A stretch of 64,000 nt of DNA from Halorhodospira halochloris (GTDB taxonomy: Bacteria > Pseudomonadota > Gammaproteobacteria > Nitrococcales > Halorhodospiraceae), in assembly GCF_002356555.2 (NCBI RefSeq), contig NZ_AP017372.2:1054001-1118000 (forward strand). Direction: 5' to 3'. Below, piece after piece: positions 5,163-62,804 of this stretch (the first letter of the stretch is position 1; each line of letters begins with the position of its first letter). Below the pieces are notes generated by a model that did no database searches, had not been told where the DNA came from, and saw only the letters and a list, made by a program, of their open reading frames with translations. Position numbers and translations under genes: made by a program.

Positions 5163-5312
5163 GGAACCTCTAAAAAATTCGCCGGCGCCACCATCTGCCC
5201 CGGTGTGGAGGACGCCGTGAATCCATCCCTGGAGGCTTCATGGCGCTATTCCTGGCGCCAAGACCTCCACACCGGGGCGGATGGTGGCGCCGGCGAAGTT
5301 TTAGAGGCACCC
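5163..5312 (-). repeat. Foldback repeat FB1
   Basis: Full copy between the divergent cobU and DUF3422 genes, 28 bp from the cobU start. The outer arms pair over about 47 bp with only a few mismatches: CGCCGGCGCCACCAT on the left, ATGGTGGCGCCGGCG on the right. Its ends are CCTCTAAAAA and TTTTAGAGG. The two inner hairpin loops read GGGA and GGAA on the minus strand. One inner hairpin has a C-A mismatch on that strand (a U-G wobble on the other). Confidence 0.9.
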
Positions 5313-8642: not shown

Positions 8643-8766
8643 CCAGCTAGCCCCCATACGGGGACGCCGTGGATCCATCCCTGGAGGTTTCACGGCGCCA
8701 TCTCCGGCGCCAAGACCTCCACGCCGGGGCAGTTGAGTGGCTCCGGGGGAAGTTTTGAGAAATTCC
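8643..8766 (-). repeat. Foldback repeat FB3 (left arm degraded)
   Basis: Lies in the 365-bp gap between the divergent BCCT and ispB genes. The core and right arm (GCCGGGGCAGTTGAGTGGCTCC) are intact, but the left arm is reduced to AGCTAGCCCCCATACGGGG and no longer pairs well. One inner hairpin loop is GAGA rather than GGGA on the minus strand, closed by G-U. I see nothing else clear in this gap. Confidence 0.8.
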
Positions 8767-13676: not shown

Positions 13677-13834
13677 GGGAACCTCTAAAAGCATTCCTGG
13701 AGCCATGGGGCCATATCTGCGCCAGTTTGGAGGGCGCCGTTAATCCATCCCTGGAGGCTTCATGGCGCCATCCCTGGCGCCAAGACCTCCACACTGGCGC
13801 AGATATGGCTCCGGAAATGCTTTTAGAGGCGACC
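13677..13834 (-). repeat. Foldback repeat FB4
   Basis: Full copy between the converging Abhydrolase_9 and fimT genes. Its arms differ from other copies: GCGCCAG next to the core, GCATTCCTGGAGCCAT further out, answered by ATGGCTCCGGAAATGC. The left arm carries an eight-base duplication (GGGGCCAT) that is not matched on the right. Both inner loops are GGGA on the minus strand. Confidence 0.9.
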
Positions 13835-14914: not shown

Positions 14915-15068
14915 GGGAACCTCTAAAAACACCCGCCAGAGCCACTCAACTGCCCCGGTGTGGAGGGCGCTGTGAATCCGTCCCTGGAGGCTTCTTGGCG
15001 CCATCCCCGGCGCCAAGACCTCCACGCCGGGACAGTTGAGTGGCTCCGCAGGAGCATATAGAGGTGCA
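14915..15068 (-). repeat. Foldback repeat FB6, inside the pilin operon
   Basis: Full copy between pilX and the pilE-like gene. Its end lies directly against the pilX stop codon at 15069. Arms: GCCACTCAACTGCCCCGG / CCGGGACAGTTGAGTGGC; the outermost part (ACACCCGCCA versus GCAGGAGCATA) pairs less well. Both loops are GGGA on the minus strand, with one G-U closing pair and one A-C mismatch. Confidence 0.9.
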
Positions 15069-15512: not shown

Positions 15513-15664
15513 GGGAACCTCTAAAAACCTCCCCGGCGCCATTATCTGCCACGGTGTGGAGGAAGCCGTGAATCCATCCCTGGAGGCTTCATGGCGCCAT
15601 CCCTGGCGCCAAGACCTCCGCACCGGGGCAGATAATGGCGCCGAGGAGGTTTTTAGAGGCACCC
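15513..15664 (-). repeat. Foldback repeat FB7, inside the pilin operon
   Basis: Full copy between pilW and pilX, ending 24 bp before the pilX start. Arms CTCTAAAAACCTCCCCGGCG and GCCGAGGAGGTTTTTAGAG pair with one mismatch; GGCGCCATTATCTGCC pairs with GGCAGATAATGGCGCC. Both loops are GGGA on the minus strand. This is among the best preserved copies. Confidence 0.92.
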
Positions 15665-19034: not shown

Positions 19035-19185
19035 GGAGCCTCTAAAAACTCCCCGGGGCCACTCAGCTGCCCCGGCGTGGATGGCGCCGTAAATCCATCC
19101 CTGGAGGTTTCATGGCGCCATCCTTGGCGGCAAGACCTACACTCCGGGCAGTTGAGTGGCTCCGGAGAGTTTTTAGAGGCACCCC
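19035..19185 (-). repeat. Foldback repeat FB8
   Basis: Occupies the middle of the 435-bp gap between the divergent PA2779-like and HD-GYP genes. Outer arms GAGCCTCTAAAAACTCCCCG / GAGAGTTTTTAGAGGC and GGCCACTCAGCTGCCC / GGGCAGTTGAGTGGC pair with a few mismatches. One inner loop reads GGGA and the other AGGA on the minus strand. The core stem has point changes (CCTACACT for CCTCCACA). I see no gene in the rest of the gap. Confidence 0.88.
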
Positions 19186-20570: not shown

Positions 20571-20716
20571 GGAGCCACTAAAAGCTCCCCCTTAGTAAGG
20601 CTGCACCGGAGTGGAGGTCTTGGCGCCAGGGATGGCGCCATGAAGCCTCCAGGGATGGATTGACGGCGCCCTCCACTCCGGTGCAGCCTTACTAAGGGGG
20701 AGCTTTTAGTGGCTCC
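20571..20716 (+). repeat. Foldback repeat FB9, perfect 47-bp arms
   Basis: Between the converging HD-GYP and porin genes. The left arm 20571-20617 and right arm 20670-20716 are exact reverse complements over 47 bases, including GGAGCCACTAAAAGC at the end and CACCGGAGTGGAGG near the core. The core stem reads CCGGAGTGG rather than the usual CCGGTGTGG, and the change is matched on both sides. Both loops are GGGA on the plus strand. Confidence 0.95.
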
Positions 20717-22099: not shown

Positions 22100-22250
22100 G
22101 TCGCCTCTAAAAAAACTCCCCGGAGCCATTACCTGTCCCGTTGTGGAGGTCAAAGCGTCAGGGATGGCGCCATGAAGCCTCCAGGTATGAATTTACGGCG
22201 TCCTCCACTGCGGGACAGGTAATGGCTCCGGGGAGATTGTTAGAGGAGCT
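22100..22250 (+). repeat. Foldback repeat FB10, between the Pho box and phoB
   Basis: Full copy, ending 28 bp before the phoB ATG. Arms CTCCCCGGAGCCATTACCTG / CAGGTAATGGCTCCGGGGAG pair almost perfectly. One inner loop is GGGA, the other GGTA. The core is more diverged than in most copies (GGTCAAAGCGTC, ATGAATTTACGG). Any phoB transcript from the Pho box would carry this hairpin in its leader. Confidence 0.9.
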
Positions 22251-24837: not shown

Positions 24838-24988
24838 CCCTCCCAAAAAACCCCACCTGAGCGAATATGGTTAGCCGGTGTGGAGGACGCCGTGAATCCA
24901 TCCCTGGAGGCTTCATGGCGCCATCCCTGGCGCCAAGACCTCCACACCGGCTAACCATATTCTCTCAGGTAGGTTTTTTTGGGAGGGG
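24838..24988 (-). repeat. Foldback repeat FB11, with private arms
   Basis: In the 412-bp divergent gap between pstS and pstC. The core is consensus (both loops GGGA on the minus strand), but the arms are unlike the family's usual ones: CCCTCCCAAAAAACC, then GAATATGGTTAGCCGG, answered by CCGGCTAACCATATTC and GGTTTTTTTGGGAGGG. The two arms therefore changed together. The A/T runs at the ends give it terminator-like form in both directions. Confidence 0.93.
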
Positions 24989-33340: not shown

Positions 33341-33494
33341 GCGCCTCAAGGAACCTCCCCTAGGGCCATCCAGCTGCCTCGGCGCGGATGGTCTTTGTGC
33401 CAAGGATGGCGCCATGAAGTCTCCAAGGATGGATTCACGGCGTCCACCACGCCGGGGCAGCTAATGGCTCCAGGGGAGGTTTTCTGAGGGTCCC
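33341..33494 (+). repeat. Foldback repeat FB12
   Basis: Between the tandem EAL and glycosyltransferase genes, beginning 15 bp after the EAL stop. Arms: AACCTCCCCTAGGGCCATCC and AGCTAATGGCTCCAGGGGAGG, with several mismatches. Both inner loops are AGGA, and the core stem is CGGCGCGGATGG on one side, so this copy looks older. Confidence 0.85.
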
Positions 33495-35312: not shown

Positions 35313-35462
35313 GCATAAAAAACCCCACTTGAGTCATTATTCAGCTGCCCCGGTGTGGAGGACACCGTGATCTATCGCTGGAGGCTTCACGGCGCCAAAA
35401 CTAGCGCCAAGACCTCCCAACTCTGGGGACAACCGAATGGCTCATGTGGGGATTTTAATGTG
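35313..35462 (-). repeat. Foldback repeat FB13
   Basis: Between the converging PAP2 and Kdo-transferase-like genes. Ends CATAAAAAACCCCACTTGAG and CTCATGTGGGGATTTTAATG pair. The inner loops are GCGA (a GNRA variant) and GTTT on the minus strand. The arm next to the core (TTCAGCTGCCCC / TGGGGACAACCGAA) has drifted. Confidence 0.85.
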
Positions 35463-36403: not shown

Positions 36404-36552
36404 GGGTGCCTCAAAAACTCCCTAGCCCCACTGGGTTGCCCCGGAGTGGAGGTCTTGGTGCCATGGATGGCGCCATGAAGCCTCCAGGGATCGATTAACG
36501 GCGTCCTCCACACCGAGGCAACCCAGTGGTTCTATGGCTAGTCTCTTTAGGC
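36404..36552 (+). repeat. Foldback repeat FB14
   Basis: In the 331-bp gap upstream of the Kdo-transferase-like gene and downstream of dadA. Arms GCCCCACTGGGTTGCCCCGG and CGAGGCAACCCAGTGGTTC pair; the outer ends CTCAAAAACTCCCTAGC / GGCTAGTCTCTTTAGG pair partly. Loops are TGGA and GGGA. The rest of the gap shows no gene. Confidence 0.88.
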
Positions 36553-39896: not shown

Positions 39897-40057
39897 GAGT
39901 GGGACAGCCCGAAGAGTGCCTCGGTCTAATGGCTGGCTCGGTGTGGAGGTCTTGGCGCCAGGGATGGCGCCATGAAGTCTCCAGGGATGGATTGACGGCG
40001 TCCTCCACACCGGGGTAGCCATTAGGTCGAGGCACTCTTCGGGCTGTCCAGTGACTC
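39897..40057 (+). repeat. Foldback repeat FB15, with private arms
   Basis: Between the divergent CobW-type and aroC genes. The core is consensus (both loops GGGA) but the arms are unique: GGACAGCCCGAAGAGTGCCT and, further in, CTAATGGCT, answered by AGCCATTAGGTCG and AGGCACTCTTCGGGCTGTCC. The usual CTCTAAAAA ends are absent. This is the best single case of arms that changed but still pair. Confidence 0.94.
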
Positions 40058-42478: not shown

Positions 42479-42584
42479 CATTAGAGCCACATACTTGCAC
42501 TGTGGAGGACCTGGCGCCAGGGTCGCCACTAGGCTTTCAGAGATGGATTCGCTGCCTTCTCAACAGTGCATGGGCGTGGCCTAA
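42479..42584 (+). repeat. Degenerate foldback repeat FB16
   Basis: Shortened, diverged copy: CTTGCACTGTGGAGGACC, then GGCGCCAGGG, then AGATGGATTCGCTGCCTTC and ACAGTGCATGG. The arms (TGCACTGT / ACAGTGCA) still pair, but part of the inner hairpins, including GCCATGAAGCC, is lost. FB17 follows one base later. Confidence 0.75.
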
Positions 42585-42585
42585 C

Positions 42586-42733
42586 GGAGCCTCGAAGCCT
42601 CCCCGGAGCGATTGGCTGCACCCGGTGTGGAGGTCTTGGCGCCATGGATGGCGCCATGAAGCCTCCAAGGATGGATTTACGGCGTCCTCCACACCGGGGC
42701 AGCCAATTGCTCCGGGGAGGCTTCTCGACAGCC
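42586..42733 (+). repeat. Foldback repeat FB17
   Basis: Full copy directly after FB16 in the 374-bp gap between the MFS gene and leuC. Arms GAAGCCTCCCCGGAGCGATT / AATTGCTCCGGGGAGGCTTC are nearly perfect; the ends read CCTCGA/TCGACA instead of CTCTAAAAA. Loops are TGGA and AGGA. A TATACT 42 bp upstream of leuC, beyond the repeat, may be its -10 element. Confidence 0.9.
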
Positions 42734-44888: not shown

Positions 44889-45040
44889 GGGTCTCTAGCA
44901 ACTTCCTCGGAGCCATATAGCCTCCCCGGTGTGGAGGACGCCGTGAATCCATCCCTGGAGGCTTCATGGCGCCATCCCTGGCGCCAAGACCTCCACACCC
45001 GGGGAGGCTATATGGCTCCGAGGAAGTTGCTAAAGACGCC
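44889..45040 (-). repeat. Foldback repeat FB18, inside the leu operon
   Basis: Starts at the base after the leuD stop and ends 55 bp before leuB. Arms AGCAACTTCCTCGGAGCCAT / ATGGCTCCGAGGAAGTTGCT are perfect, and ATAGCCTCCCCGG pairs with CCGGGGAGGCTAT apart from one extra C. The ends GTCTCTAGCAA / TTGCTAAAGAC differ from the common CTCTAAAAA. Both loops are GGGA on the minus strand. Confidence 0.94.
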
Positions 45041-59751: not shown

Positions 59752-59914
59752 GAGGAAACTCTAAAAATCCCCTAGGCACCAGCCATTAGCTGCCCAGTGT
59801 GGAGGTCTTGGCGCCAGGGATGGCGCCATGAAGCCTCCAGGGAAGGATTCACGGCGTCCTCCACACCGGGATGCTAAAGGTTGGGGTGCCAGGCGGATTT
59901 TTAAATATTCCCCA
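59752..59914 (+). repeat. Foldback repeat FB19
   Basis: Starts 11 bp after metZ, between the converging metZ and suhB genes. Arms are less regular: CTAAAAATCCCCTAGGCACC / GGTGCCAGGCGGATTTTTAA, and CATTAGCTGCCCAGTGTGG / CCACACCGGGATGCTAAAGG. Both loops are GGGA, one closed by A-A. A G9 run and a GGGGTG/CACCCC hairpin follow at 59926-59950. Confidence 0.85.
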
Positions 59915-61604: not shown

Positions 61605-61755
61605 GGGCGTCTCGAAAGGCTTCCCTGAGCCAATTTGTTGTCTTGTGTGGAGGACGCCGTGGATCCATCCCTTGAGGCTTCATGGTGCTAGCCCTGGCGT
61701 CCATACCTGCACACCGAGACAAGCGATTGGCTCAGGGAAGCCTTTCGAGACGCCT
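61605..61755 (-). repeat. Foldback repeat FB20
   Basis: Nine bases after trmJ, upstream of cysE. Arms GGCGTCTCGAAAGGCTTCCC / GGGAAGCCTTTCGAGACGCC pair perfectly over 20 bp but differ from the common CTCTAAAAA ends. Inner loops are GGGA and GGGC on the minus strand. The core has several changes (CTTGTGTGG / CCTGCACACCGAG). Confidence 0.92.
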
Positions 61756-62629: not shown

Positions 62630-62804
62630 TAGCCCCTAAAAATGCTCTCCAAAATTACCCCCGGAGCAACTCAACTGCCCCGGTGTGGAGGTCTTGGCGC
62701 CAAGGATGGCGCCATGAAGCCTCCAGGGAAGGATTCACGGCGTCCTCCACACCGGGGCAGTTGGCAGTTGAGTGGCTCCGGAGGGAATTTTTAGAGGCGA
62801 GCTC
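62630..62804 (+). repeat. Foldback repeat FB21 (longest copy)
   Basis: In the 394-bp gap between cysE and ndk. Arms CCGGAGCAACTCAACTGCCC and GTTGAGTGGCTCCGGAGGG pair; the right arm has a seven-base duplication (TTGGCAG), and the left end carries CTAAAAATGCTCTCCAAAAT, partly unmatched. Loops AGGA and GGGA. Confidence 0.88.

Follow-up and report, generated by a model that had tools for sequence, protein, structure and literature searches.

The palindrome at positions 20571-20716 of a 64-kb stretch of the Halorhodospira halochloris genome (the window, i.e. all 64,000 nucleotides analysed) belongs to a real, mobile, class-wide structured repeat. We propose that it is a mobile foldback repeat whose plus strand folds as RNA and whose paired tip loops form a putative binding site for CsrA, a combined reading to which the sequence comparisons below lend an even chance. 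The repeat may thereby spread predicted CsrA binding sites.

Structure of the focal palindrome and its copies in the window

The focal palindrome has near-perfectly paired arms and a tip forked into two hairpins, with the cores GGCGCCAGGGATGGCGCC (20622-20639) and TCCAGGGATGGA (20648-20659). The stretch folds on either strand into a long arm with two tip hairpins, surpassing 200 of 200 shuffled sequences (z-scores of -16.0 on the plus and -14.3 on the minus strand). A search of the window with the 59-nt core yielded 18 copies on both strands, plus three weaker matches. At gathering level, no Rfam families except two tRNAs were found in the window. A weak extra core-like match (nhmmer E 4e-4) lies at 42505-42559, near the copy at 42629. 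The parts of the focal copy and the core copies from the window search are:

20571-20617, plus strand: left palindromic arm of the focal copy, pairing with 20670-20716 (sequence, fold)
20613-20671, plus strand: core of the focal copy
20618-20643, plus strand: hairpin 1 of the focal copy, stem TCTTGGCGCC/GGCGCCATGA with a T·T mismatch (sequence, fold)
20629-20632, plus strand: loop of hairpin 1, focal copy, NGGA within A-NGGA-T
20645-20667, plus strand: hairpin 2 of the focal copy, GCC+TCC / GGA+TTGAC bulge+GGC (sequence, fold, covariation)
20652-20655, plus strand: loop of hairpin 2, focal copy, NGGA within A-NGGA-T
20670-20716, plus strand: right palindromic arm of the focal copy (sequence, fold)
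5210-5268, minus strand: core copy, 5-mer CAGGG repeated at both ends
8662-8720, minus strand: core copy
13732-13790, minus strand: core copy
14965-15023, minus strand: core copy
15561-15619, minus strand: core copy
19082-19140, minus strand: core copy, 5-mer TGTGG repeated at both ends
22145-22203, plus strand: core copy
24885-24943, minus strand: core copy, with a below-threshold Ysr224 match on the opposite strand
33387-33445, plus strand: core copy
35359-35417, minus strand: decayed core copy, loops GTTT and GCGA
36448-36506, plus strand: core copy
39945-40003, plus strand: core copy
42629-42687, plus strand: core copy
44936-44994, minus strand: core copy
59801-59859, plus strand: core copy
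61652-61710, minus strand: core copy
62687-62745, plus strand: core copy

Copy number and mobility in H. halochloris

A 20-base piece of the core, with up to three mismatches allowed, matched the 2.83 Mb H. halochloris genome 315 times (172+143), and the same pattern read backwards gave 2 matches. We assembled a copy set from the window and 40 further stretches (674 kb in all; 37 of the 40 stretches were picked for holding copies). A profile search of this DNA returned 160 copies, of which 142 were full. Their palindromic arms measure ~42-48 bp and end in GGGNRCCTCTAAAA...TTTTAGAGGTTCCC, with an A-run and a T-run at the outer ends.

Anchoring on these ends was possible for 90 of the 142 full copies (52 could not be anchored), and an identical 5-mer stands outside both ends in 30 of the 90, compared with 3.2 for randomly paired flanks. 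The repeat has therefore spread by transposition in this genome, with 5-bp target duplications, and shows the target-site duplication expected of a MITE-type (DDE) element. One of the 30 copies with a duplication has odd arm lengths. In relatives, 5-mer duplications were at control level (5/38 vs 4.2, 5/36 vs 3.8, 3/24 vs 1.9 and 1/22 vs 1.2). A search for an autonomous partner bearing these ends located twelve end-like sequences away from cores in the 674 kb of own-genome DNA, and no stretch there carries two such core-free sequences in inverted orientation.

Some loci in this genome depart from the common form. Short palindromes with the ends of the element and no forked core occur at L066:6062 and L051:6379, either as coreless deletion forms or as independent small elements. 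At L051:16575, L060:7592 and L065:158 the left and right arms differ widely, one arm being that of the commonest subfamily; such copies look like products of recombination between two copies at the core or of the replacement of an arm. The loci L077, L079, L080 and L081 contain IS200/IS605-type transposase genes next to TnpB-type genes (OrfB_IS605).

Distribution and conservation of the forked tip

Relatives were searched with a covariance model, R1, which was built from 13 sequences with ANGGA loops and so favours such loops; its copy numbers are lower bounds, and copies within one genome are not independent. With the H. halochloris genome included in each count, R1 matched 28 of 54 genomes of the order and 50 of 274 genomes (44 of 222 genera) of the class. 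In a phylum sample it matched 28 of 398 genomes, all of the same class, in a sample that may hold no other classes. That the family belongs to the Gammaproteobacteria is concluded from the named relatives and the hosts of the plasmids. One genus of the order (g10: G018, G021, G024, G026, G028, G030, G032, G044, G046-G048 and G050-G052) comprises 14 small genomes of 1.2-2.2 Mb; R1 matched 0 of the 14, and csrA is present in 13.

Plasmid copies were located with a string from the Ysr224 consensus that includes the reverse complement of the loops. This string hit 14 plasmid records of Pantoea and Enterobacter and gave no match in phages. Copies on Pantoea plasmids lie between convergent genes, and a plasmid of Enterobacter chuandaensis carries two copies in inverted orientation. 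Against plasmids and phages, a G027 copy as query gave no match and the window core gave one weak match; one exact pattern had 0 matches in viral contigs.

In alignments of relatives, 95.1% of cells pair in 71 distinct order rows, with double changes in 23 of 26 pairs, and 95.2% pair in 25 class rows, with double changes in 24 of 26; both alignments were fitted to the structure of the model, which helped these pairing figures. Five of five covariation measures lay above all 500 shuffles for the order rows. For the class rows four of five exceeded 500 of 500 shuffles, and the fifth was reached by 13 of 500. By these alignments, the forked tip is conserved across the class while its stems are replaced by compensatory changes. 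The two hairpins on a three-way junction described in the sequence-only reading are thus borne out both by the fold (200 shuffles) and by covariation (500 shuffles).

Irregular features of the tip are also kept. The T·T mismatch of hairpin 1 is unpaired in 21 of 25 class rows, and the bulge of hairpin 2 (TTGAC in the focal copy) is conserved as TTYAC in relatives. In four sets of relatives the arms have median lengths of 29, 29, 30 and 29 bp, with individual lengths between 22 and 89. Arm sequence varies among most of the copies listed, with related copies sharing arms, and no fixed sequence is common to the relatives' arms. Close copy pairs in G038 and G027 are inverted in 14 of 18 cases.

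The conserved loop is A-N-GGA-N

The sequence-only reading had assigned most of the loops to the GNRA type. GGGA is indeed the commonest loop, and most copies fit GNRA literally. In hairpin 1 of the 142 full own-genome copies, however, the base before GGA varies (G109 A16 T14 C2, one gap) and GGA itself is nearly fixed (G in 136, G in 133 and A in 130 of 142). The base that GNRA leaves free is thus almost invariant and one that it fixes is variable, so GNRA is the wrong name for this loop. Order and class rows agree.

Judged from the aligned copies, the conserved loop in both hairpins is A-N-GGA-N. The loosest loop positions of hairpin 2 in the own genome are its two N (G132 A9 C1 and T126 A9 C5 G2), and the 71 order rows read A 71, N (G42 T22 A3 C4), G70, G71, A70 and N (T55 C10 A2 G4). 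GGA is present in both hairpins in 25 of 25 class rows, preceded by A in 23 and 24. Hairpin 2 reads CANGGANG in 69/71 order rows, 24/25 class rows and 26/30 rows of a further set; for ANGGAN in hairpin 1 the figures are 58/71, 23/25 and 24/30. Both loops are still ANGGAN in the Pantoea plasmid copies, which have lost the TTCAC bulge, and in the two Enterobacter copies. The loops are among the best-conserved parts of the element, which is the opposite of the palindromy without loop conservation that the sequence-only reading had named as evidence against an RNA role.

Strand polarity of the pairing

Since a position that pairs as G·U when one strand folds becomes an A·C mismatch when the complementary strand does, the ratio of the two shows which strand has been selected to fold. 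Our aligner scored G·U and A·C as equal mismatches. In the 29-bp arms of 116 distinct copies from relatives, read on the ANGGAN strand, we counted 133 G·U and 20 A·C, together with 84 other mismatches (G·U vs A·C, p about 1e-21, the copies being not fully independent). The excess recurred in every set (G038 34:7, G027 47:1, other genomes of the order 29:8, class 23:4), in the outer arm, a part outside the search model (111 vs 16), and copy by copy, with G·U exceeding A·C in 72, the reverse in 8 and ties in 36. This polarity settles the strand in relatives: the ANGGAN strand is the one that folds, most likely as RNA.

The signal in H. halochloris itself is weak. Its arms hold 115 G·U against 79 A·C (p 0.012), a separate tally of the full set of 142 copies came to 201:153, and one of the most frequent arm subfamily to 21:8. 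The core mutation spectrum of this genome comprises 65 changes that make G·U and 85 that make A·C; mutation alone therefore gives no reason for a G·U excess. We read the weak own-genome signal as that of a recent burst decaying neutrally. The sequence-only reading had listed G-U changes in the first hairpin stem, set against them a recurrent A-C mismatch in the second, and called an RNA role plausible but the strand not settled. G·U does lead in hairpin 1 (20:15), yet these changes leave the strand unsettled within this genome; the remark on the second stem holds, hairpin 2 having 11 G·U and 20 A·C. An RNA-like role on the strand which that reading used is supported by the relatives' arms.

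Gene context

Genes were called with a simple hexamer script instead of an annotation pipeline. The 160 own-genome copies comprise 54 between convergent genes, 38 between divergent genes, 34 in tandem gaps in the same orientation and 28 in the opposite one, and 6 overlapping or neighbourless. In G038 the 40 copies divide into 15 convergent, 8 divergent, 7 tandem same, 9 tandem opposite and 1 overlapping, and in G027 the 36 copies into 19, 1, 7 and 9. Over the three genomes the copies did not favour either direction relative to the genes (tandem gaps: 48 same vs 46 opposite, p 0.92). The G·U:A·C counts of 74 G038 and G027 copies were 48:2 in convergent, 13:1 in tandem same, 18:3 in tandem opposite and 6:2 in divergent gaps. 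Because orientation is not preferred and the G·U excess appears in every setting, the constraint concerns the element's own single-stranded form and not host mRNAs. These orientation counts and the divergent copies also exclude a directional 3'-UTR element or terminator as the sole role.

Relation to known repeats and RNAs

In Halothiobacillus neapolitanus, CGTC-tagged REP dimers sit within palindromes of 41 bp, where ATTCACG marks the right junction (Di Nocera 2013, PMC3733652). As described there, these CGTC-1 dimers resemble the present repeat in having two hairpins within palindromic arms, an ATTCACG immediately to the right of the second hairpin, in part of the rows a CGTC/TGTC/CCTC tag before hairpin 1, no dedicated transposase and a preference for convergent and unidirectional gaps. 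They differ in that they were interpreted at the DNA level, as repeats that had inserted into palindromes of a single species, and their stems start with AT and their tails are CCA. Neither holds here: an 8-9 bp AT-starting stem with a CCA tail was absent by eye, and stem starts vary. The tag CGTC, TGTC or CCTC occurs in 43/71, 12/25 and 15/30 rows, and after tag-led stems we saw by eye mostly GAGCC, GAGCG, AAGCC or AAGCG. The H. neapolitanus consensus gave 7 single matches, each with 2 mismatches, in 369 genomes of the class, among which the H. neapolitanus genome was not encountered. CsrA and GGA do not appear in the text searched of PMC3733652. The layout is probably the same, and by the printed consensus the two repeats may be identical.

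The consensus of Ysr224 (Rfam RF02770, Yersinia sRNA 224) contains the reverse complement of the tip. Sub-threshold Ysr224 matches fell on 10 of 12 loci from relatives and on one window copy, always over a copy and opposite the ANGGAN strand, scoring 22-34 bits where the gathering threshold is 70. Ysr224 is, however, filed as an sRNA on the UCCCU strand, not AGGGA. In Yersinia, YPAL/RU-2 is also a palindromic mobile intergenic repeat, of ~168 bp, that inserts beside dyad symmetry; by the description in PMC2229807, its target duplications vary from 3 to 26 bp, unlike the 5 bp found here.

CsrB/RsmZ-type CsrA-binding RNAs likewise present A-N-GGA-N hexaloop hairpins, two close together, and TwoAYGGAY is the motif of one CsrA-binding RNA type. 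Such RNAs are single trans-acting genes or leaders, whereas the present unit is repeated and mobile; no CsrB/RsmZ-type Rfam family matched in the stretches scanned. ERIC/IRU is similar as a palindromic intergenic mobile repeat, and we presume a resemblance of the two around TTCAC. Homology to ERIC was rejected: at two E. coli ERIC loci, which represent one site sampled from two strains, R1 scored no higher than 3.2 bits.

GTAG-type REPs carry a GT[AG]G tetranucleotide that stands 0-2 nt upstream of their hairpin (PMC6006769). This tag precedes hairpin 1 in 0/71, 0/25 and 0/30 rows. A GTAG-type REP moved by a RAYT is hence unsupported: there is no tag, and in 63 stretches around a subset of the Y1_Tnp hits no RAYT flanked on both sides, despite a copy near the RAYT of G027.

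CsrA binding as a candidate function

CsrA recognizes RUACARGGAUGU with GGA in a hairpin loop (PMC4347634), and ANGGAN hexaloops are described as the recognition element of CsrA/RsmA (PMC3791407). The element has an ANGGAN hairpin loop at two sites, as a CsrA-binding RNA should, and UACARGGAUGU (the SELEX consensus minus its first base) stands in hairpin 2 in 9 of 71, 11 of 25 and 7 of 30 rows. H. halochloris has one csrA gene (Pfam PF02599), behind an aspartokinase-like gene (by eye); its product is a near-identical CsrA, residues 1-58 of which match 1y00 (carbon storage regulator; E 4e-27), which we take to be E. coli CsrA, and 2jpp was also matched. Among the papers searched, none joined CsrA, 'repetitive extragenic palindromic' and GGA.

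A CsrA dimer can bridge two loops. The site is a copy of a non-coding foldback element, small and mobile, with a conserved two-hairpin forked tip, and its two A-N-GGA-N hexaloops 23 nt apart would suit one CsrA/RsmA dimer holding both. Transcripts would arise from a source copy or when transcription reads into the element from outside, the RNA would bind CsrA, and each copy would then be a movable CsrA site, the whole family forming a dispersed CsrA reservoir in which oppositely oriented copies would be inert at the CsrA level. An effect on genes and the identity of the moving enzyme are parts of the proposal that we infer. CsrA binding is the best-supported candidate function, about as likely as not. 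More tentatively, the family as a whole could carry a paired CsrA/RsmA site as conserved cargo throughout the class, the element being selected as a folded RNA that is possibly CsrA-bound in its own life cycle.

Several observations run against the CsrA reading. The copies show no gene-orientation preference, and the G·U excess extends to tandem-opposite and divergent gaps. Within the order, 50 of 54 genomes have csrA regardless of whether they carry the element, so that co-occurrence does not discriminate, and two of the four genomes lacking a csrA match (G033 and G049, both in many contigs) carry at least 8 and at least 13 matches. In the own genome, A·C exceeds G·U in hairpin 2, the second N of hairpin 1 is not loose (T137 of 142) and the two A of its A-N-GGA-N loop are replaced by G in 7 and 8 copies. 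The single copy in genus g73, between a purD-type gene (GARS domains) and a purH-like gene (by eye), is antisense to both neighbours in both genomes seen. Ysr224 is filed on the opposite strand, R1 was trained on ANGGA loops, and the plasmid copies were found with a loop-bearing string.

If the CsrA reading is true, transposition takes the capacity to bind a global regulator to new places and multiplies it, to ~300 copies in one genome. An abundant repeat that lacked an explanation would then connect mobile DNA with the Csr regulon across many gammaproteobacteria in a concrete way that can be tested, and fragments known singly, the REP dimers of one species and one Yersinia sRNA, would be united as one family. 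The G·U strand polarity can also serve, at low cost, to test other palindromic repeats for RNA-level selection.

Alternative explanations

The main rival, possible but rather unlikely, takes the tip as the site at which a recombinase or transposase recognizes single-stranded DNA, reading only the plus strand as the IS200/IS605 and REP enzymes do, and the likeness to CsrA sites as chance. The element is mobile in its own genome, its fold constraint is independent of gene orientation, and hairpins read by DNA enzymes carry conserved mismatches and bulges, as does this tip with its T·T mismatch and TTYAC bulge. G027 moreover has a true RAYT (NF047646, E 1e-60; the REP-associated tyrosine transposase gene at L270:2130-2903), whose stop codon is followed 162 bp further on by a copy. 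On the other hand, G·U accounts for ~6% of the pairs in the outer arms (111 among 1830 G·U and Watson-Crick pairs), a share usual for RNA and costly in DNA, and the relatives' arms share no fixed sequence. Only 4 of 63 stretches around a subset of the order's Y1_Tnp hits (L077, L270, L271 and L272) hold an R1 match near the gene, three of them picked for known nearby copies; in none of the 63 is a Y1_Tnp gene flanked by copies on both sides, and the four own-genome Y1 loci examined all adjoin TnpB-type genes.

A two-way transcription terminator or 3'-end stabilizer with incidental loops, which we consider improbable, would fit the convergent gap as the commonest setting in all three genomes and the A- and T-runs of the own-genome ends. 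It accords poorly with the 38 own-genome copies between divergent genes and with the lack of a T-run after the arm in 14 G038, 14 G027 and 12 of 14 class copies among those listed, and it requires neither loop conservation nor one favoured strand. Very improbable, in our view, is a neutral palindrome in which one arm is rewritten from the other by replication errors templated on the hairpin, with no selection involved. Its traces would be the 88 changes common to both arms, against 49 unmatched and 21 expected by chance, among 49 members of the most frequent arm subfamily, the mirrored insertions visible among the own-genome copies listed, and the less unequal G·U and A·C of that genome; but shared ancestry inflates the 88, and the strong polarity in relatives, together with the conserved tip, needs selection on one strand. 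To GNRA tetraloops docking into a receptor we give next to no credence: the prevalence of GGGA speaks for them, but the first loop base accepts T, A and C and the second is a nearly fixed G in the own genome, order and class.

Individual loci

Mirrored insertions and substitutions in both arms of single copies among L037-L076 are candidates for hairpin-templated correction. At L249:1501-2712 six copies stand in tandem with a period of ~227 bp, interleaved with another repeat that presumably resembles a Pseudomonas REP. L220 and L221, from two congeneric genomes, carry a single copy in the corresponding intergenic gap, and both the copy and the rest of the gap are nearly unchanged.
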